64,000 nucleotides of DNA. Origin: Demequina rhizosphaerae (lineage in GTDB: Bacteria > Actinomycetota > Actinomycetes > Actinomycetales > Demequinaceae). The stretch is from NCBI RefSeq assembly GCF_000971255.1, contig NZ_BBMC01000002.1, positions 682,001-746,000 of the forward strand, given 5' to 3'. Made by a program: the position numbers and the translations under genes. Positions 5,994 through 32,885 of the stretch are shown piece by piece (the first letter of the stretch is position 1; each line of letters opens with the position of its first letter). The notes beneath the pieces are model-generated. The model was not told the origin of the DNA. It did no database searches and saw only the letters and a program-made list of their open reading frames with translations.

Positions 5994-6000
5994 CCGAACG

Positions 6001-6073
6001 AGCCGCCTGTGGGAATCGAACCCACGACCTATTCATTACGAGTGAATCGCTCTGCCGACTGAGCTAAGGCGGC
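6001..6073 (-). tRNA. tRNA-Thr (anticodon CGT)
   Basis: On the minus strand the sequence folds into a standard 73-nt cloverleaf: acceptor stem GCCGCCT/AGGCGGC, D-arm GCTCAGTCGGCAGAGC, anticodon stem ATTCA/TGAAT around loop CTCGTAA (anticodon CGT, reading ACG), and T-arm GTGGGTTCGATTCCCAC. The discriminator base is T and CCA is not encoded, as is usual in actinobacteria. A strong hairpin terminator follows within 10 bp. Confidence 0.97.
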
Positions 6074-7693: not shown

Positions 7694-8842
7694 CTAACGA
7701 CGGCTCGGGGTGCGCGGCCGCAGGTCGAGCGCCATCGCCTCGAGGGCGAGCAGCGGCGCCACGTTGCCGGCGAGCCGCTCGCGGGCGGTGCCGAGCGCGT
7801 CGAGGCAGCGCATCGTGTCCGCGAGCGTGGTCCGCTCGGCGAGGTCCCGGACGTGGCCCTCGTGCGCGAGGTTGACCATCGGCACGGTCGCGCCGGTCTG
7901 CGCGACGGCGACGTCGCGGTAGAGCGACATGAGATCGGTGATCGCGCGGTCGAGCACGTCGCGCTTGTGGCGAGTGGCGCGGCGCTTCTGGTCCTCCTCG
8001 AGCTGGCGCAGCTGCGCGCGCAGCGCGGGCGGGATGCGGCCGCCGTCCTCGACGCCGAGGGTGGTCATGAGCTGCGCCTTCTCCTCGGCGTCGCGCTCCT
8101 CGGTAGCGGCCTTCGCGTCGGCGTCGGCGACCTCGACGAGGTCCGCCGCGGCGAAGATCGCGTCGCCCACGCCGCGGATGTCGGTCGCGAGCGCGAGCAC
8201 CTGGTCGCGGCGGGCGCGTGCGTCGGGGTTGCGGGCGAGGCGGCGCGCGATGCCGATGTGGCTCTGCGCCGCGAGCGCGCACTCGAGCGCGAGCGCGGGC
8301 TCGATGCCGTCCCGCTCGGTCAGCAGGCGGGCGACGTCCTGGGGGTCGGGGGTGCGCAGGCCGACGATGCGGCAGCGGCTGCGGATGGTGACCGCGACGT
8401 CCTGCGGGCTGGGCGCGCACAGCACCCAGACGGTGCGCGCGGGCGGCTCCTCGATGGACTTGAGCAGCACGTTCGAGGTGCGCTCGGTCATGCGGTCGGC
8501 GTCCTCGACGACGATGACCCGCCAGCGCCCCTGGCTCGGCGAGGTGGCCGCGAGCCCGATGAGGTCGCGCACCTCGTCGATGGAGATGGTGACCTTCTCC
8601 GTGGCGACGAGGGTGACGTCGGCGTGCGAGCCGGACAGCGCGGTGGTGCACGCGCGGCACTCGCCGCAGCCGCCGCGCTCGCACTGGAGGGCGGCGGCGA
8701 AGGCGCGCGCGGCGTACGAGCGCCCGGATCCGGGCGGGCCGGTGATGAGCCACGCGTGGGTCATCGAGCCCGGGTCGTCGATCGCGGCGCGCAGCGGCCC
8801 GACCTGACGCTCCTGGCCGACGACCTCGTCCCAGACCGTCAC
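7694..8842 (-). CDS. holB: DNA polymerase III subunit delta'
   Basis: Clamp-loader subunit of the replicative polymerase, 382 residues. The N-terminal AAA+ domain begins VWDEVVGQERQVGPLR and carries Walker A-like GPPGSGRSYAARAF, the zinc-binding cysteines in CERGGCGECRACTTAL, the DEAH-like VVEDADRM and sensor/SRC motif TIRSRCRIV. The GTG start at 8842 overlaps the thymidylate kinase stop by 4 bp (GTGA), and tmk-holB is the standard actinobacterial order. The Walker A lysine is replaced by arginine (GSGRS), consistent with the delta' subunit generally not hydrolysing ATP. Confidence 0.93.
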   Translation of the reverse strand: MTVWDEVVGQERQVGPLRAAIDDPGSMTHAWLITGPPGSGRSYAARAFAAALQCERGGCGECRACTTALSGSHADVTLVATEKVTISIDEVRDLIGLAATSPSQGRWRVIVVEDADRMTERTSNVLLKSIEEPPARTVWVLCAPSPQDVAVTIRSRCRIVGLRTPDPQDVARLLTERDGIEPALALECALAAQSHIGIARRLARNPDARARRDQVLALATDIRGVGDAIFAAADLVEVADADAKAATEERDAEEKAQLMTTLGVEDGGRIPPALRAQLRQLEEDQKRRATRHKRDVLDRAITDLMSLYRDVAVAQTGATVPMVNLAHEGHVRDLAERTTLADTMRCLDALGTARERLAGNVAPLLALEAMALDLRPRTPSRR

Positions 8843-10456: not shown

Positions 10457-11452
10457 CTACACCTCGTTCGGGTAGCGCAGGCCGATCTGCATGCGGACCT
10501 CGTCCATGATCTCCATGATCTCGATGGACTGGTCGAGCGTGAGCAGCGGGCTCTCGGTGTCGCCCGCGTGGATGCGGCGCGCGACCTCGGCGGCCTCGAA
10601 CTGGAAGCCGTTGGGCAGCGTGCCGTCGTACGTCCATGACGTGCCGTCGAGCCGGGTGACGGTGAAGGACGTGGGCGTGTAGAAGGTGTCGTGCACCTCG
10701 ACGCGGCCCTCGGTGCCGCCGATGAGCGCCATGCACGGGGTGCGCGCCTCCATCGTCGTGGTGAGGATCGCCTGCGCGTGCTCGTAGTCGAAGATCATCG
10801 ACGCCTGGCCGTCGACGCCGGTCTCGCGGAGGCGGCCGGTCGCGGTGATCTTGTCGGGCACGCCGAGGAGGTCGTGCGCGAAGGCGATCGGGTAGACGCC
10901 GAGGTCGAGCAGCGCACCGCCCGCGAGCGCCGGGTTCCACATGCGCTCGACGTGCGTGAGCATCTGGCCGTGGTCCGCCTGGACCGAGACGAGGTCGCCG
11001 ATCTCGCCGCGCGCGATGAGCTCGCGGAGCGCGTGGACGTGCGGCAGGTGCCGGGTCCACATCGCCTCCATGACGAACACGCCCTTGGCGCGGGCCGCGG
11101 CGACCACCTCGCGCGCCTGCGCGGCGTTCTGGGTGAAGGCCTTCTCGCACAGGACGTGCTTGTCGGCCTCGATCGCGAGCAGCGTGTGCTCATGGTGGTG
11201 GCTGTGCGGGGTGGCGACGTAGACGACGTCGATGTCCGGGTCCGCGACCAGCTGCTCGTACGAGCCGTAGGCGGTCGGGATGCCGGCGGCGTCGGCGAAG
11301 GCCTGGGCCCTCGCCTCGTCGCGCGAGCCGACCGCGACCACGGACGAGTCCGTGTAGTGCGTGACGGCGTCGGCGAGCTTGCGGGCGATGCCGCCGGCGC
11401 CGAGGATGCCCCAGCGGACGGCGGGCGCGGACATGGGCAGCGGTGCACTCAT
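10457..11452 (-). CDS. Gfo/Idh/MocA-family NAD(P)-dependent oxidoreductase
   Basis: A 331-residue dehydrogenase of the Gfo/Idh/MocA family, most like trans-1,2-dihydrobenzene-diol dehydrogenase/glucose-fructose-oxidoreductase types. The N-terminal Rossmann motif is WGILGAGGIARKLADAV (about 14-30), the family signature is HVLCEKAFTQN with the catalytic lysine, and the substrate domain contains WTRHLPHVHAL and GGALLDLGVYPIAFA. MSAPLP at the extreme N-terminus could be trimmed to the second methionine (MSAPAV). The neighbours give no pathway hint, so the sugar or polyol substrate is unknown. Confidence 0.85.
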   Translation of the reverse strand: MSAPLPMSAPAVRWGILGAGGIARKLADAVTHYTDSSVVAVGSRDEARAQAFADAAGIPTAYGSYEQLVADPDIDVVYVATPHSHHHEHTLLAIEADKHVLCEKAFTQNAAQAREVVAAARAKGVFVMEAMWTRHLPHVHALRELIARGEIGDLVSVQADHGQMLTHVERMWNPALAGGALLDLGVYPIAFAHDLLGVPDKITATGRLRETGVDGQASMIFDYEHAQAILTTTMEARTPCMALIGGTEGRVEVHDTFYTPTSFTVTRLDGTSWTYDGTLPNGFQFEAAEVARRIHAGDTESPLLTLDQSIEIMEIMDEVRMQIGLRYPNEV

Positions 11453-11492
11453 ACGGCCAGCATAGGGGGACGATGCGGCGCCCGGGCGGGCG

Positions 11493-12179
11493 TCAGCCGA
11501 GGCCGTCGAGGTACGCCGCCACCTCGTCGAAGCCGGCGTCCCACGCGCAGTCCTCCGCGTCGTCCCCGACGGCCGCGCCGTGCTCGACGAGCCACCTCAC
11601 CGCGTCGAGGCGGCCGTGGCAGGCCGCGAAGTCGAGCGGCGTGCCGAGCCCCGCGTGGCTGACGTCGACCGGCACGCCCGCGTCGACGAGGAGCGCCATC
11701 GCGTCGACCTGCCCCGCCGCGGCCGCGTAGTGGAGCGGGTCCGCACCGTCGACCGCGCCCCGCAGCGGCGTGAGGTTCGCCCCGGCCTCGATGAGAAGCT
11801 CCATCGTTTCGAGCTGCCCGGCGCGGGCGGCGAGGTGGAGCGGCATGTCGCCCCACTCGGCGCGCCCGTTCACGGGTGCCCCTCCGGCGATGAGCAGGGC
11901 GGTGACGTCCGCGTGCCCCAGGCTCGCGGCGGCGTGCAGCGGGCCCGCCCCCACGCCGGAACCCCGGTCCACATCCGCGCCGGCGGCGATCGCCGCGCGC
12001 GCGTCCTCGACGTCGCCGCGGACGGCGGCCACCTTGAGCGCCTGGTCGGGCGTGAGCCCGCCCTCGACCGCGACCGGGGACGATGCGAGGGAGGCGCTCC
12101 CCGCATCGTCCCCTCCCCCGGTGCACGCGGCGAGCAGCAGCGCTGCCGTCACGGTTGCGGTCCACCGGGAAGCCTTCAT
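11493..12179 (-). CDS. Ankyrin-repeat lipoprotein
   Basis: A 228-residue exported lipoprotein. The signal peptide ends in LLLAAC with the lipobox cysteine at about residue 19, followed by a Gly/Asp/Ser linker and four or more ankyrin repeats ([80 protein letters not shown]). Ankyrin repeats bind proteins, so it probably holds a partner at the outer face of the membrane. The start overlaps the stop of the upstream ankyrin membrane protein by 4 bp, making it third in an ECF sigma operon. A perfect 12-bp inverted pair of GGACGATGCG repeats lies in the linker-coding part (12076-12113). Confidence 0.82.
12076..12113. repeat. Inverted pair of GGACGATGCG repeats inside a gene
   Basis: GGGGACGATGCG at 12076-12087 is perfectly complementary to 12102-12113, with a 14-nt spacer that is itself partly self-complementary. 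It lies within the segment encoding the linker between lipobox and ankyrin repeats, a place where coding constraint is low. This is the same repeat-pair geometry as at 10414-10449, but here inside a reading frame. Confidence 0.75.
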
Positions 12180-13024
12180 GACGCCGCCTCCGCCGCGTCC
12201 GAGATGAGCCCGACCAGGTCGCGGGCCTCGCCCTGCTGCGCGAGCCAGGTCGCGAGCGGGACGCCCTCGATCTCGATCGTCGGGTCCGCACCGAGGTCGA
12301 GGAGCAGGCGGATGAGGTCGGGGCCGCGCAGCGCCGCCGCGTCCGCGAGGCTGCTCCACACCCCCGGCTCCTCGAGCGGGTAGCCGAGCACCGCGAGCGA
12401 GGCGACCGTGTCGTCGGGGGCCTGAGCGATCGCGAGCGCCATGATCTCGCGCGGGCTCCAGTCGTACGGGCTCAGGTGGACGACCCTCTCCACGACGTCG
12501 ACCGGGCACACCCACATGGCCCCGGCGATCACCGGGTCGAACACCGTGCTCGACGTGCCCGGCTGCGGCTCGGCCGCCATCGAGGCGATCCACGGCGCGC
12601 CTGCCCGCACGAGCATCTCGATGCCCCCGGGGTCGCACGCGGAGGCGGCCGCCTGGACGAAGGTCTGACGCTCCGGGAGCGGCTCGTCGAGGTAGATCCC
12701 GAGCTCGAGCAGGCCGCGCATGCGGTCGTGGTCGCTGCGCTCGATCGCCTCGAGCAGCTGCCGCTCGAGCGGCGCGTCGGTGAGGTCGAGATCGTCGCCG
12801 GGACCCGCGGGCTCGAGCGCGTGCAGCGGGCCCAGGCCCAGCGCCCATGCGCCGAGGAGCGCTGCGGGCACGATCGCCGCGGCGACGGTCGCGCCGACTG
12901 TCGTGGCGCGCCGGAACCGTCCCACGCGGATGCGGTCGGCGAGCCTCGCCGTGCCGTCCTCCTCGAGACGGCGGCGTGCGGCCTCGCCGCGCTCTGCCGC
13001 GATGCGGAGCAGCTCCTCAGGCAT
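12176..13024 (-). CDS. Membrane-anchored ankyrin-type protein, candidate anti-sigma factor
   Basis: A 282-residue protein with a charged cytoplasmic N-terminus ([20 protein letters not shown]), one membrane segment (about residues 40-62, [21 protein letters not shown]) and an external domain of degenerate ankyrin-like helical pairs ([52 protein letters not shown]). Its start overlaps the end of the ECF sigma gene by 8 bp, the usual position of a membrane anti-sigma factor. It does not look like a zinc-binding ZAS anti-sigma domain, so anti-sigma function is inferred from position and topology only. Confidence 0.72.
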
Positions 13025-13571
13025 GCCGTACCCCCTTGCTCGCGGGCTCGACGGCGACCGTCGCGACCTCGTCGCGCCCGCGCCGCTCGTCCGCCAGCCA
13101 CGGCCCGAGCGCCTGACGCGCGCGGTGCAGCAGGGTCTTCACGGTGCCGCCGGCGATCCCCATCTCGCGCGCGATCTCCTCGACGGTGAGATCGTCGTGG
13201 AACCGCAGCACCGCGGCGACGCGCACGCGCGGCGGCAGCGTCCGCAGGGCGTGATCGACGTCATCGGTGGCGACGATCTCGTCCGCCGGATCCGGCTCGG
13301 CCTGGTCGATCGCCTGGCCCGGCATGAGCCGACGCCAGCGGGCGCCCCGGCGCACGGCGTCGAGGTGGACGGTGCGCATCGCGGCGCGCACGTACGCTTC
13401 CGCGGCGCGCACGTCGGTGAGCCGCCGCCGCTTCGAGAACACCTTGACGATCGACTCCTGCACCAGGTCCTCCGCGTCGAGCTGCGAGCCCGTGAGGAGG
13501 TACCCGTAGGTGCACAGGCGACCGAGCGCGGAGCGGTACAGCTCGCTCAGCACGCGCTCCAGGTCGTCCAT
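13017..13571 (-). CDS. ECF RNA polymerase sigma factor (SigE-like family)
   Basis: A 184-residue group-4 sigma factor. Region 2 includes [20 protein letters not shown] and [20 protein letters not shown] (core binding and -10 recognition); region 4 includes [20 protein letters not shown] and the [24 protein letters not shown] chose the ATG at 13571 because GGAGGGG lies 4-5 nt upstream; an ATG at 13586 would add five residues. It heads an operon with an ankyrin membrane protein and an ankyrin lipoprotein, overlapping the first by 8 bp, and probably senses an envelope signal through them. Confidence 0.9.
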
Positions 13572-13645
13572 GTCCCCTCCCGACATATGAACGCTCGCCT
13601 CCGCCGGCGGGTTGACACCGGACGATGCGCGGGACCGGCGGGCGG

Positions 13646-14497
13646 TCACGGCCGGCCCCCGTGGAGGATCGACGCGCACTCGTCACGCCACGCCGCCGTC
13701 GTGCTCGCGGCCATGGCGGCGCAGTCCGCCGGGGACGGCAGCCGGGCGAGCAGCACGGCCAGCTGCTCCCCGTCGGCCGTGCGGAGGCGCGTGTCGGCGC
13801 CGAGCGCGACGAGCGCATGCGCGGTGTCGGCACGCCCGGCGCGAATCGCGGCCTCGAGCGGGCTCGGGCCGGCGGCGCCGTCCGCGCCGTCGACGGGGAA
13901 GCCCAGGCCCGCGAGGGTGCGCACCGCGGCGGGCGAGCCCTCGGCCGCGACGAAGGCCATGAGGTGGATCGGGGGCGCGTTCGACGGGGAGCCCTCCCAC
14001 ACCGCCTCGATCACGCCGCGGGGACAGGAGCGGATCGCCGCGCTGAGGGCGGCGTCCTCCCGGATCCGGCCGTCCGCGAAGCGCCGCGCGCCCGCGTCGG
14101 CGAGGCGCCCGAGCATCGCGAGGTCGCACGTGGCGGCCGCGAGCCGCATCGCCTCCGCCGGGCGCGCGCGGTCGAGCTCCTCGAGCGCGCCGTCCGCGAT
14201 GAGCCCGCCCACCGCGTCGCCGTCCCCGGCGGCGATCGCGTCGGCGAGTCGATCGCCGAGCGGCACCGGAGGGTCGACCAGGCGGAGCACGCCGGCACCG
14301 ACCAGCGCCGCGATCCCCATCGCCAGCACGACGCGCCGCACCCGGCGCCGCCGGCGGGTCTCGACCGCCAGCGCGTCCAGGCCGGCGAGCGCACGCCAGG
14401 CGCGCCCACGCATCGTCCCCGCCGCGTCGGCCGCCGCGACGGCGAGGGCCTCCGCCACGCTGGTCGGCGTGGGGCGAGGAGGGGGACGCTCGACCAT
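13646..14497 (-). CDS. Second membrane-anchored ankyrin-type protein
   Basis: A 283-residue paralogue in architecture of the protein at 12176: cytoplasmic N-terminal part (about 1-52, ending in an arginine-rich run RRRRRVRR), one membrane helix (VVLAMGIAALVGAGVLRLV, about 55-73), then an extracytoplasmic domain of ankyrin-like helix pairs (GDGDAVGGLIADGALEELDR, DLAMLGRLADAGARRFADGR, SPLEAAIRAGRADTAHALVA). It lies 14 bp downstream of a sigma-like gene and so repeats the sigma-ankyrin gene order. Two cysteines near the C-terminus could be disulfide-bonded. Function is inferred only; anti-sigma or sensor is most likely. Confidence 0.68.
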   Translation of the reverse strand: MVERPPPRPTPTSVAEALAVAAADAAGTMRGRAWRALAGLDALAVETRRRRRVRRVVLAMGIAALVGAGVLRLVDPPVPLGDRLADAIAAGDGDAVGGLIADGALEELDRARPAEAMRLAAATCDLAMLGRLADAGARRFADGRIREDAALSAAIRSCPRGVIEAVWEGSPSNAPPIHLMAFVAAEGSPAAVRTLAGLGFPVDGADGAAGPSPLEAAIRAGRADTAHALVALGADTRLRTADGEQLAVLLARLPSPADCAAMAASTTAAWRDECASILHGGRP

Positions 14498-14511
14498 CGC
14501 GGGCCGCGACG

Positions 14512-14997
14512 CTAGGGCGCTCCCCGGGACCGATCGCGGCGGGAGGACACCTCGACCTCCTCGACCACGTCGTCGGGCACTCCCGACGCGGCCACGCCGA
14601 GCGCGCCGGCGAGCGAGAGATGGCCGGCGCGCAGCGCGTCCCCGGCGGCGGGCTCCGGGAGCCCGAGCGACGTCGCGACCTCCGTGGTCGACAGCCCGTC
14701 GACGAGACGGAGGATCGTCGCGGCCCGCTGACGCGGCGTCAGCGAGCGCAGCGCCTCGAGCGTCCCGCTGGCCGGCGGCGACTCCGCCGGACGGCGGCGC
14801 CCGCGATGCAGGTGGAGCTCGGCCATGGCGCCGCGGATGCCGGCCTCGAGCGGGCCGCGGCGGCGCGCGGTCAGGACGCGGAGCGCCGCGGAGCGGAGCA
14901 GGCGCTCGGCGGCGGCGGGCTCGCCCTCGAGGAGGTAGGCGTCCGCGGCGAGGCGCGTTCGAGCGCCCTCAGACAGCCCCGCGAGCGTGGCGTCCAT
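14512..14997 (-). CDS. Degenerate ECF-type sigma-like protein
   Basis: A 161-residue protein with a clear sigma region-4 HTH (LEALRSLTPRQRAATILRLV, GLSTTEVATSLGLPEPAAGD) but a shortened, divergent region 2: AYLLEGEPAAAERLLRSAAL aligns with the [16 protein letters not shown] segment of canonical factors yet has lost the DAED/QE acidic core. The ATG at 14997 follows GGAGGGGGC. It precedes the second ankyrin membrane protein by 14 bp. It may be a diverged sigma factor, an anti-sigma-like decoy or an HTH regulator; which one cannot be decided from sequence alone. Confidence 0.65.
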   Translation of the reverse strand: MDATLAGLSEGARTRLAADAYLLEGEPAAAERLLRSAALRVLTARRRGPLEAGIRGAMAELHLHRGRRRPAESPPASGTLEALRSLTPRQRAATILRLVDGLSTTEVATSLGLPEPAAGDALRAGHLSLAGALGVAASGVPDDVVEEVEVSSRRDRSRGAP

Positions 14998-30269: not shown

Positions 30270-30430
30270 ACGTCCTCCTTGACGTTCTCCCCGACACGAC
30301 TCCGTTGTCGCGCCCGCAAGGGGTACCAGGCCACTCTAGGGGACAAGGTCGGCGAGTCGTCGAGTCCCGACCCAACGTTTCTGCCACGGTGCCCGTCAAC
30401 CATGCAGGGCACGACGAGGTGGGGGATCGC

Positions 30431-30988
30431 ATGAGCGACTGGCGGGAGACGATGGCGCAGCTGGTGCGCGATCGCGAGCGCGCGCTGCTCGGATACGCAT
30501 ATCTGGTGTGCGGCGACGGGACGCTGGCGCAGGACCTGGTGCAGGACGCGCTGGTGCGGACGTTCTCGCGTCCACGCCCCGGACTGACCTCGGTGAAGGC
30601 GGAGGCGTACGTGCGCCGCGCGATCACCACGGCCTACATCGACGGGTACCGCCGGGACCAGCGGTGGAAGCGGGTCCAGCACCTCTTCCGCCCGGCCGCA
30701 CCCCTCGCGGACCCGCTCGCGGGCGTCGAGGCCGGGGCGGACGTGCTCGAGGCGCTCGCCACGCTGGCGCCGCGCGAGCGGGCCTGCGTGGTGCTGCGGT
30801 TCTTCGACGACCTCACCGTGCCCGACATCGCGCAGCACCTGGGCCTCGCGCCCGGATCGGTGAAGCGGTACCTGCATGACGGCCTGGCACGGCTCGAGCT
30901 GCTGCTCGGGCCCCTCGAGGACGATTCCCGCGACCAGGCGGACGACGAAGTCGACGTGGCGACGCGTCGACGGACGGAAGGCGGCTGA
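30431..30988 (+). CDS. ECF RNA polymerase sigma factor, SigE-like family
   Basis: A 185-residue ECF sigma factor. Region 2 reads ALLGYAYLVCGDGTLAQDLV followed by QDALVRTFSRPRPG, and region 4 reads TLAPRERACVVLRFFDDLTV with HTH DIAQHLGLAPGSVKRYLHDG. The ATG at 30431 was selected since it gives the family length. The next gene starts 2 bp after its stop and encodes a single-pass protein with a large external domain, the typical arrangement for a sigma/anti-sigma pair. Regulated promoters are unknown. Confidence 0.9.
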   Translation: MSDWRETMAQLVRDRERALLGYAYLVCGDGTLAQDLVQDALVRTFSRPRPGLTSVKAEAYVRRAITTAYIDGYRRDQRWKRVQHLFRPAAPLADPLAGVEAGADVLEALATLAPRERACVVLRFFDDLTVPDIAQHLGLAPGSVKRYLHDGLARLELLLGPLEDDSRDQADDEVDVATRRRTEGG

Positions 30989-30989
30989 C

Positions 30990-32885
30990 ATGAAGCTCTC
31001 GGATGCCCTGCGGGGCGCCGCGGACCGGGCCCCGCTCGACGGGCTCGCGGTCGACACCCGTCGTGCGCAGCGTCGCGTGACCACCCAGCGCGGCCTGCGC
31101 ACCGGCTCCGGCGGGGTGCTCGCCGGCGGCATGGTGGTCGTGCTCGGCTTCGGCATCTCCGGCGCGGTCGGCGGCTCGGCCGCCACGAGCGGGGACGATG
31201 CGGGACGGGACGAGGCCGCGGCGGTCACCGAGGAGTCGGCCGGCGGCGCCGCCGGCGAGATGGACGGCGCGATGGCCGACTCGTCCGCGCTCGCGTGGGG
31301 GCTGTGCGGCCAGGAGCTGCCGTCCCTCGAGAGCACCGACGCCCCCGTCGAGCTCGACGCGACGATTGTGGGCGAGCCCGCCGTGGGCGAGGAGCTGCCG
31401 GTGACCGTGACGAGCAGCGTCGTCGCGGACGGCACGTTCGCGACGTTCGGGATCGACGGCGTGGTGCTGTGGGACGGCGTCGTCGTCGGCACCCTCGGCT
31501 CGGACGGCGTCGCCGCGGCCGAGGTCGCCGACCTCGCGGCCGGGGACTCGTCCGTCGCGGACCTCGCGGTGCCGCTGGTGAACTGCTGGGACGGCGAGCC
31601 GCTGCCCGCGACGAAGTACGAGCTGGTCCTCACCCAGGAGTTCTACGCGACCGCGGCCACCGACGAGCCGCCGGTGGTCGAGCCGGTCCAGCCCACCGAT
31701 CCCGTCTCCCCCGAGGCGGTCGAGTCCGAGGAGCCCGGCGGCCCCGCGGAGTCCGCCGGGTCAGGCGAGGCGACCGACGGCGATACCGGCGCGGCCGGCG
31801 ACACGGGAGGGACCGTCGACGACGACGCCACCGTGACCAACGACGACGCGTCCGCGATGATCGCGGCTGGCGGCCCCGCGCTGCGGGCGATTGCTCCCGC
31901 GGTCGGGTTCGCGATCGCGGGCGACCCGGTCGACGACCCGTTCGCGGAGTACCTGCGGGTGGACGAGCCGGAGCCCATGCCGACCGTGCCCGACGACGAG
32001 CCGACCGTGAACGAGGACGCCCTCGATGCGGACACGGCGCGCGGGCTCTACCGCGACGGCCTCGCGGGTGCGTGGGACATGGCCGCGGGCACGCAGCGGT
32101 GGATCGTGTCGGGCGACTCGACCGGGGCGCTGGCCGCGTCGTGGTTCGGCTGCGCGTGGGAGGGCGACGGCGCGTTCCCGGCGCGCTCCGCCGAGATGGA
32201 CCTGCTCGACGTCACGGTCGCCGCGCCGGCGGCCATCGACGTGAGCTACGGCTGGATCGTGGACGGCAACCCCGCCGTGACGAGCCGCGTCGCCAACGCC
32301 TCGGCCTGGGACCTCGACGGGTTCTGGGACGCGGGCAGCGTCCAGCTCGCGCTCGTGCGGGACGGCCGCGTGGTCGCCGAGGCCTACCCGGTGAACCCGT
32401 ACCAGTACCGGGACGTCGCGATCGCGGAGTCCCTGGACGGCGCCGAGGACGCGTCGATCGCGATCGAGCCCTACGGCTACTCCGACGGCGGGCTGGGCCG
32501 CGGCGAGTCGGTCGAGACGCGGCTGCTGTGGCGCGACGTCAACGGCTGCTGGGGCGAGAGCGGCCAGGCGACCGTCGAGCCCGGCACGTACACGCTGCTC
32601 GCGATGCACTACCTCAGCGTGGGCGGCGGCTACGCGGTCGCGTGGGACAGCGCCGACGAGGACCTGCTCCTGGAGGAGGAGGCCCGCGCGGGCGACCTCG
32701 GCGGCACCCTGGGCGACAACGACGGCCCGCTGCTGCTCGAGCCGGACTCCACCGACGCCGGCGAGGCAGTCACGGGCGGCGGCTCGACGGGCAGCGCGAT
32801 CGCTCCCGCCCCGGACGGCGCCACAGTGTACGACGCCGTCGACTTCCAGGTCTGGACGTCGCTCGGCACCCTGACGGTGCGCTGA
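30990..32885 (+). CDS. Single-pass protein with large secreted domain, sigma-factor partner
   Basis: A 631-residue protein with a short cytoplasmic N-terminus (MKLSDALRGAADRAPLDGLA), one membrane helix (about 41-62, GGVLAGGMVVVLGFGISGAV) and a large acidic external region: a domain with paired cysteines (WGLCGQELP, NCWDGEPLP), a Pro/Glu/Ser/Gly-rich linker (about 225-300), and a second cysteine-bearing domain (WFGCAWEGDGAF, RDVNGCWGESGQ). Its start is 2 bp after the ECF gene, so an anti-sigma role is inferred. No zinc anti-sigma motif is visible. A GGACGATGCG repeat at 31193 falls in the juxtamembrane linker. Confidence 0.72.
   Translation: MKLSDALRGAADRAPLDGLAVDTRRAQRRVTTQRGLRTGSGGVLAGGMVVVLGFGISGAVGGSAATSGDDAGRDEAAAVTEESAGGAAGEMDGAMADSSALAWGLCGQELPSLESTDAPVELDATIVGEPAVGEELPVTVTSSVVADGTFATFGIDGVVLWDGVVVGTLGSDGVAAAEVADLAAGDSSVADLAVPLVNCWDGEPLPATKYELVLTQEFYATAATDEPPVVEPVQPTDPVSPEAVESEEPGGPAESAGSGEATDGDTGAAGDTGGTVDDDATVTNDDASAMIAAGGPALRAIAPAVGFAIAGDPVDDPFAEYLRVDEPEPMPTVPDDEPTVNEDALDADTARGLYRDGLAGAWDMAAGTQRWIVSGDSTGALAASWFGCAWEGDGAFPARSAEMDLLDVTVAAPAAIDVSYGWIVDGNPAVTSRVANASAWDLDGFWDAGSVQLALVRDGRVVAEAYPVNPYQYRDVAIAESLDGAEDASIAIEPYGYSDGGLGRGESVETRLLWRDVNGCWGESGQATVEPGTYTLLAMHYLSVGGGYAVAWDSADEDLLLEEEARAGDLGGTLGDNDGPLLLEPDSTDAGEAVTGGGSTGSAIAPAPDGATVYDAVDFQVWTSLGTLTVR

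Follow-up and report, generated by a model that had tools for sequence, protein, structure and literature searches.

In the class II anti-sigma factor CnrY two helices lie on sigma4 and sigma2, and short cytoplasmic helices are enough for binding; a Hx3Cx2C motif in the cytoplasmic domain defines the zinc-binding class I anti-sigma factors (excerpts of PMC7406223). RsbN is a membrane-anchored anti-sigma factor of class III, while PhyR of the alphaproteobacterial general stress response has a sigma fold whose promoter- and core-binding regions have degenerated (excerpts of PMC8103513). The ankyrin self-protection protein Bd3460 of Bdellovibrio blocks cell-wall peptidoglycan endopeptidases (abstract of PMC4686830). 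Here a locus is described from a 64,000-nucleotide stretch of the Demequina rhizosphaerae genome (contig NZ_BBMC01000002.1, positions 682,001 to 746,000; hereafter the window), in which two genes for sigma factors of the extracytoplasmic function (ECF) type, sigA and sigB, are each followed by a gene for a membrane protein with an ankyrin-type ectodomain, ankA and ankB, and the second pair is followed by a gene for an ankyrin lipoprotein (Table 1).

The explanation held to be probable is that sigB, ankB and the lipoprotein gene form the operon of a self-amplifying ECF switch, with AnkB as a membrane anti-sigma factor bearing an extracytoplasmic ankyrin receptor. This proposal draws on the gene order, the overlaps, the architecture of span, tail and cysteines, the ankyrin fold of the model, a near-unique promoter motif and the loss of residues in SigA. 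In such a switch SigB would transcribe its own operon from a CAACC-N16-CGTT promoter, and AnkB would keep SigB inactive at the membrane by binding it with a basic N-terminal tail of about 42 residues. The ankyrin ectodomain, probably stiffened by a disulfide outside the membrane, would bind a protein ligand, and the binding or loss of this ligand would free SigB by proteolysis or by a conformational change. Release would jointly increase all three products of the operon, of which the ankyrin lipoprotein would be either the main cell-surface output or a co-receptor. The sigA-ankA pair would be a sister module with a non-working sigma factor and no promoter, kept for another job such as that of a sigma mimic or adaptor, or slowly decaying. 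By analogy, a tail of 40 residues could suffice for sigma binding, since the short domains of the CnrY type bind with two helices.

SigB and its predicted promoter

SigB exceeds the Pfam cut-offs for region 2 (PF04542, 33.4 against 24.0) and region 4 (PF08281, 52.9 against 25.7) and that of the NCBIfam superfamily model TIGR02937 (72.2 against 42.9). Its best specific model is TIGR02983 (SigE-fam_strep), where its 119 bits lie under the cut-off of 141.55, so that it is not a member of this family as the model defines it.

To place SigB among its relatives, 44 genomes of the genus were used, and the interval between topA and the oxidoreductase gene was read in the 40 in which both genes could be called; one genome without an oxidoreductase match (present in 43 of the 44) and L079, L080 and L081, which had no callable pair, were left out, and one 37-bit sigma row in L073 was dropped. 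Sigma genes were present at the locus in 29 of the 40 genomes, with one to four in each, and absent from 11, and 52 sigma/partner pairs were extracted. The 52 sigma factors split into 34 intact (at least 222 bits) and 18 degenerate (at most 145 bits), with the threshold (220 against 150) set after the gap had been seen. The scoring model was built from 37 sigma factors of this locus and the window, and other sigma lineages are not readable on its scale, on which four other sigma factors of the window's genome have 136–157 bits. In the tree of the locus sigma factors SigB represents a clade of seven genomes with support of 98/97.

A dyad of the form of an ECF promoter, CAACC-N16/17-CGTT, was found 5' of the intact sigma genes. 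Of 39 genes, 34 from the locus and five from elsewhere in the genome, 20 have CAACC followed by CGTT at 15–18 nt in the 130 nt before them; in 20 shuffles no dyad of this kind reached more than 6. Within 100 nt upstream, the strict dyad precedes 18 of the 34 intact sigma genes and none of the 18 degenerate ones, and a relaxed form precedes 33 of the 34 and one of the 18, the shuffled mean being 0.30 of 34. The exact extended motif CAACC-N16-CGTTCATRTG occurs at 14 sites in the 44 genomes, with a maximum of one per genome, and its reversed control at none. Twelve of the sites are 5' of an intact sigma gene, 11 of them no more than 40 nt from the called start; one exact site, in L136 (a genome rated 50% complete), lies 126 nt ahead of a truncated sigma call. 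The remaining two represent a single site that two genomes with a sigma-free topA-oxidoreductase interval have in common.

The sole exact site in the genome of the window (3.03 Mb) is at 13584–13614, ahead of sigB. Because the only exact site of the genome fronts this gene, SigB is predicted to have its own operon, sigB-ankB-lipoprotein, as its main and perhaps sole strong target, and presumably autoregulates through the site. The same genome has 34 looser matches to the motif, compared with 6 to the reversed control, and weaker target sites are possible.

The ankyrin partners and the lipoprotein

The lipoprotein belongs to the ankyrin proteins by its Pfam Ank_2 score (87.9 against a cut-off of 27.3; 6.8e-25). 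AnkA scores 16.9 with the same model, under the cut-off of 27.3 bits, and no Pfam ankyrin match was obtained for AnkB. An AlphaFold2 model of AnkB, made with 11 sequences from the window and named Demequina species, has a mean predicted local distance difference test score (pLDDT) of 83, with most of the ectodomain above 90 and a value of 54 near residues 151–160. It consists of one long N-terminal helix (residues 2–61), whose confidence falls and is low beyond about residue 30, and then a series of helix pairs. Foldseek matched this model to designed ankyrin repeat proteins (DARPin) and natural ankyrins with a best E of 3e-5 and 119 matches at E ≤ 0.001, the 50 listed being led by ankyrin and designed-ankyrin chains, and the Bd3460 structures 5cea and 5cec were among the fold matches. 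SigA and SigB are paralogous (32% identity, 5e-14), as are the ectodomains of AnkA and AnkB (30% identity, 1e-9). Since the ectodomain of AnkA aligns with that of AnkB, whose model matches ankyrin and DARPin structures, the term ankyrin-type is, judged from the model, right for both proteins.

Residues Cys130 and Cys173 of AnkB are invariant across 11 aligned partners, and all 12 ankyrin partners have two or four ectodomain cysteines and none in the tail or span. This fits a topology with the N-terminus inside, the C-terminus outside and disulfides in the ectodomain, because basic residues precede the span and the number of ectodomain cysteines is even. The original prediction of an ankyrin membrane partner with an N-terminal tail agrees with this architecture, in which a short basic tail and one span are followed by an ankyrin domain with paired cysteines. 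It had also suggested the lipoprotein as a possible sensor of an envelope ligand. As a member of SigB's own predicted autoregulated operon, the lipoprotein may equally well be an output, and the ligand sensor becomes one of two readings.

Conservation and divergence within Demequina

Ankyrin partners, 12 proteins in all, were found in 8 of the 40 genomes, with sigA-ankA in five and sigB-ankB in seven. The lipoprotein accompanies five of the seven sigB-ankB loci, and the complete five-gene order is present in four of the 40 genomes (the window, L031, L033 and L047). Besides the window, ankyrin modules were found in D. phytophila, D. silvatica, D. maris, D. subtropica, D. gelatinilytica, D. pelophila and the relative L037. 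Gene order in relatives had been named beforehand as a refuting test, and the sigma-partner order does recur at the same place between topA and the oxidoreductase gene. In D. pelophila (L035) extra ankyrin membrane proteins are encoded at the locus (8063–8605, 10923–11477 and from 11477), the last of them joined to the oxidoreductase, either as an artefact of the gene caller or as a real fusion.

The start of the partner gene overlaps the stop of the sigma gene by 1–8 nt in 43 of the 52 pairs, and by exactly 4 nt in 35. The 52 partner tails have 36–55 residues; of the 16 residues preceding the span four to nine are Arg or Lys, against none to two of the 15 that follow it, and the number of ectodomain cysteines is even in 50 of the 52 partners. 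In a Pfam scan of 61 partners (E 0.01) Ank_2 was found in nine, and every non-ankyrin domain in one member at most.

When the window is compared with L047 (D. maris), identity is 96–97% for TopA and the oxidoreductase, 53% for SigB, 39% for the AnkB ectodomain and 41% for the lipoprotein. The ratio of nonsynonymous to synonymous substitution rates (dN/dS, here a simple Nei-Gojobori estimate at high GC content) for this pair of AnkB ectodomains is 1.34. In one module each of L036/L056 and L062/L064 the sigma factors are 93–94% identical, the tails 83–88% and the ectodomains 60–63%; the AnkA tail is 68–85% identical in three pairs. From these comparisons the modules are being swapped or are diversifying much faster than the neighbouring genes. 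The locus looks like a recognition locus, because fast divergence is combined with variable presence, absence and receptor type within one genus.

The degenerate sigma factor SigA

SigA passes the Pfam cut-off for region 4_2 only, without a match to region 2. Its TIGR02937 score is 20.0 against the cut-off of 42.9, and it lies under the curated cut-off of every ECF sigma model among its NCBIfam matches. Region 2 is shortened, AAER stands at the DAED position with the acidic pair replaced, and AAG is found in place of TVK in the recognition helix. No promoter dyad was found in the 100 nt upstream of sigA. The DAED motif has been linked to contact with core RNA polymerase (excerpt of PMC8103513). 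The acidic core-binding pair at this position is present in all 34 intact sigma factors and in two of the 14 degenerate ones that have the region, which is missing from the other four of the 18. A Lys or Arg in the recognition helix is found in 34 of 34 intact and in none of the 18 degenerate sigma factors, with the same figure for Lys. Given the loss of the core-binding pair and the recognition-helix lysine, it is very unlikely from the sequence that SigA functions as a working sigma factor.

Region 4.1 is better preserved in the degenerate sigma factors, at 65% of the near-invariant cells, and an acidic-hydrophobic motif after region 4 is present in 23 of the 34 intact (shuffled mean 14.1) and 16 of the 18 degenerate ones (shuffled mean 6.9). 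By eye this motif (e.g., at 13017–13070 and 14512–14580) is missing from most SigE-type sigma factors of other genera. The model of SigA has a pLDDT of 77 with the helices of both sigma domains predicted; ECF sigma factors lead its fold matches, and PhyR structures appear among them from rank 20 downwards.

SigA represents a clade of five genomes (100/100), with the frame open in all five, and low-scoring sigma factors are found in 13 further modules at the locus. The dN/dS values of the degenerate sigma factors are 0.29–0.61 (six pairs, frames open), compared with 0.08–0.24 for intact pairs, except for 0.58 for SigB of the window and L047, and 0.03–0.13 for the flanking genes. For SigA itself they are 0.51–0.59 in three pairs, against 0.12, 0.24 and 0.58 in three pairs of SigB. 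In a free tree SigA groups with the other degenerate sigma factors (17 of the 18, 99/95), where long branches may attract each other, and a single clade of all 12 ankyrin-module sigma factors was not rejected by the approximately unbiased (AU) test (p 0.099). The trees allow two histories: SigA may stem from a duplication of SigB that followed the gain of the ankyrin ectodomain, or the ectodomain may have been transferred between two older modules. Elsewhere in the window's genome (L042, 7902–14366, about 385.9–392.4 kb) three tandem modules of sigma factor and membrane partner were found, with sigma factors of 63, 74 and 144 bits.

Distribution outside the genus

Sixty genomes were searched, and one top-scoring SigE-type locus each was taken from 30. 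A partner with a tail and one span was found at 20 of these 30 loci outside the genus, with a 4-nt overlap in 16 of the 20; the background of 10 of 105 genes included the SigE partners of the window's own genome and so overestimates chance. Four loci, from Yinghuangia, Nocardioides, Sinosporangium and Allorhizocola, have this layout too, as do other SigE-type loci in the window's genome, where one more distant sigma factor (L045) instead precedes a different, CxxC-bearing protein.

The possibility that ankyrin partners form a general class of ECF partner was considered and rejected, as full-length matches to a profile of 11 partners came only from the window's genome among the matches listed. 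Some match to this profile was obtained in 135 of 394 genomes of the class, the other matches listed being partial, mostly of one repeat stretch. Of 29 further ankyrin loci read in the class, one (L193) has an ECF sigma gene nearby, in a different layout. In the order, AnkB matched 11 of 297 genomes, namely eight of the genus (window included) and three with short, weak matches, two of which are to lipoprotein-like proteins adjoining another ECF sigma factor and were set aside.

The search for ECF-ankyrin neighbourhoods suggested in the original prediction thus gave a divided answer: they are conserved in 8 of the 40 loci of the genus, but in the class they were met at one of 29 ankyrin loci, and there in another layout. 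As to its view that ankyrin partners of ECF sigma factors are undescribed, no ankyrin partner was named in the titles and abstract openings of the open-licence literature searched, a scope that allows for prior naming of the partner class, but the layout of a sigma factor with a tailed one-span partner is common. By these comparisons the common SigE-type partner layout carries several kinds of ectodomain, the ankyrin one among them.

Weighing of the explanations

Several results weigh against the proposed switch and the part assigned to its components. The promoter patterns were defined after inspection of the sites of intact genes, although the shuffles and the genus-wide scan support them. 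The choice of partner starts favoured candidates close to the end of the sigma gene and products with a span, so that the layout count in the genus is partly by construction, and closeness to that end was likewise favoured in the loci outside it. The template modelling (TM) scores of the AnkB fold matches are modest, 0.24–0.46 by query length. The Hx3Cx2C zinc anti-sigma motif is absent, as none of the 12 ankyrin partners has a cysteine in the tail or span. The AnkB tail is 36% identical between the window and L047, as divergent as the ectodomain at 39%, and in three other pairs (the second L036/L056 module, the L031/L033 SigB module and L032/L034) the ectodomain is 88–90% identical against 80–83% for the tail. 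A contig search with AnkB alone as query gave no match, and the ankyrin layout is restricted to one part of Demequina. Finally, the co-occurrence of degenerate and intact sigma factors at the locus is not significant (12 genomes with both, 12 with intact only, five with degenerate only and 11 with none; Fisher p 0.33), which speaks against a simple local decoy role of SigA.

It is conceivable, though unlikely, that AnkB is a surface effector and not an anti-sigma factor, with SigB controlled elsewhere and driving the expression of ankyrin surface proteins that block extracellular proteins. The exact motif is near-unique to the operon, which makes the ankyrin proteins the main predicted output, and the fold matches of AnkB include 5cea and 5cec of Bd3460, an inhibitor of peptidoglycan endopeptidases (abstract of PMC4686830). 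The modules also diverge far faster than their flanks, with the dN/dS of 1.34 in the AnkB ectodomain, as in genes of conflict and recognition. However, non-ankyrin partners, both in the genus and class-wide, have the same overlapping layout, basic tail and single span, which points to a shared regulatory role of the tail.

With regard to SigA, it is very improbable that both modules are ordinary working sigma/anti-sigma pairs: SigA does pass the Pfam cut-off for region 4_2 and is modelled with ECF-like helices, but its core-binding and −35 recognition residues are lost, Pfam region 2 is not matched, its scores are under the NCBIfam cut-offs and no promoter site precedes it. A decaying relic alongside a still useful AnkA is a real possibility, if short of an even chance. 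Its relaxed dN/dS of 0.51–0.59, the absent promoter motif and the shortened region 2 are all in keeping with decay, but the frame is open in five of five genomes, the AnkA tail is 68–85% identical in three pairs, and low-scoring sigma factors recur in the 13 other locus modules and in another cluster (63 and 74 against 144 bits). It is conceivable, though unlikely, that SigA is a sigma mimic, which would bind neither polymerase nor DNA but the N-terminal tails, either titrating the partners or staying bound to AnkA until a signal comes and passing it to SigB. That the acidic pair is left in 2 of 14 and the lysine in none of 18 degenerate sigma factors, while region 4.1 is better kept and the C-terminal acidic-hydrophobic motif is enriched, would suit such a role, as would the open frames with dN/dS of 0.29–0.61, the supported clade in five genomes, the predicted helices of both sigma domains and the precedent of PhyR (excerpt of PMC8103513). 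On the other hand, co-occurrence with intact sigma factors is not significant, degenerate sigma factors evolve faster than intact ones and have no receiver domain, and the degenerate label was set by hidden Markov model (HMM) score, so that their lower mean identity is partly by construction.

A broader and distinctly unlikely version is that arrays of non-transcribing sigma paralogues with receptors of their own act as sigma mimics, binding the kind of N-terminal tail that the partners share and relaying the AnkA signal to an intact, self-amplifying neighbour. If true, such arrays, in Demequina and perhaps in other Actinomycetes, would form a partner-switching network made up wholly of sigma/anti-sigma pairs that arose by duplication at a rapidly evolving locus for surface recognition. 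Should the self-amplifying switch with AnkB as its anti-sigma receptor be correct, ankyrin repeats would be a new receptor part on the membrane partners of bacterial sigma factors, and a natural DARPin-like protein-binding receptor tied to one promoter could be useful in synthetic sensing. The locus is a compact case of sigma/partner duplication, receptor variation and loss of sigma function with retention in the genome, and it points to a little-annotated group of partners at SigE-type loci.

Gene layout of the locus

The five genes are all open frames on the minus strand (Table 1); they are flanked by topA and a Gfo/Idh oxidoreductase gene, and a small membrane-protein gene (15358–15140) separates topA from sigA. 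The gene starts come from a simple in-house caller; its sigB start, 13586, falls inside the −10 element, and the start of the original prediction, 13571, was kept. Two sigma-ankyrin modules in a row had been predicted here, and all of their genes are present, but the modules are unequal, the first sigma factor being degenerate. That the genes overlap or are closely spaced holds, with gaps of 14 nt between sigA and ankA and 74 nt between ankA and sigB and overlaps of 8 nt between sigB and ankB and 4 nt between ankB and the lipoprotein gene. The extra ankyrin lipoprotein of the second module is likewise confirmed by its Ank_2 match (6.8e-25) and its lipobox LLAAC.

Table 1. Features of the sigA-ankA and sigB-ankB-lipoprotein modules in the window.
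Feature	Position	Strand	Description
sigA	14997-14512	minus	161 aa; degenerate ECF-sigma paralogue
ankA	14497-13646	minus	283 aa; single-span protein with a basic N-tail and an ankyrin-type ectodomain (4 Cys)
Predicted ECF-type autoregulatory sigB promoter, CAACC-N16-CGTTCATATG	13584-13614	minus	16 nt from -10 hexamer to start codon
sigB	13571-13017	minus	184 aa; intact ECF sigma, Pfam regions 2 and 4
ankB	13024-12176	minus	282 aa; putative membrane anti-sigma
ankB codons 1-42	12899-13024	minus	N-tail, putative cytoplasmic sigma-binding segment; membrane-proximal end basic
ankB residues 47-65, single membrane span	12830-12886	minus	From hydropathy; the model has one long helix, 2-61
ankB residues 85-282, ankyrin-fold domain past the span	12179-12772	minus	From model and fold matches
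Ankyrin-repeat lipoprotein	12179-11493	minus	228 aa; lipobox LLAAC; last gene of the sigB operon

A third SigE-type sigma gene of the window, with a 631-aa partner having a tail and one span and no ankyrin domain, lies at 30425–32885 on the plus strand, and the tail of this partner (LDGLAVDTRR) is similar to that of AnkA (LDALAVETRR). Two tRNA-Thr(CGT) genes were also observed about 15 kb apart (window 6000–6073; L046 11212–11288).

Comparison with known systems

The closest relatives are the SigE-type ECF sigma factors of the Actinomycetes (TIGR02983), which provide the best model for SigB and which, across the class, commonly have an overlapping partner that carries a basic tail and a single span; SigB differs in its score of 119 bits under 141.55, in the ankyrin ectodomain of its partner and in the degenerate twin alongside. 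AnkB can be likened, by layout, to membrane anti-sigma factors of the CnrY and RsbN type in its short helical cytoplasmic segment, but its ankyrin ectodomain sets it apart and its sigma binding is a prediction. Compared with PhyR, SigA (161 aa) has no receiver domain detectable with Pfam and is thus not a PhyR-type receiver fusion; its own membrane partner is encoded alongside, and titration by SigA is putative. Bd3460 has the ankyrin fold in common with AnkB, but it is an inhibitor and not a membrane-span regulator, and its abstract names no sigma factor (PMC4686830). At L193, in another genome of the class, an ECF sigma factor, a zinc-type anti-sigma factor and an ankyrin protein are encoded in one same-strand row (reverse strand, 32–1746), but there the protein that follows the sigma factor is a separate CxxC membrane protein, and the ankyrin protein is soluble, without a span. 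An ECF sigma factor with a membrane partner is of an already known kind; what seems to set this locus apart is the ankyrin receptor, named in no title or abstract opening of the literature searched, together with the recurrent, retained degenerate sigma factor.

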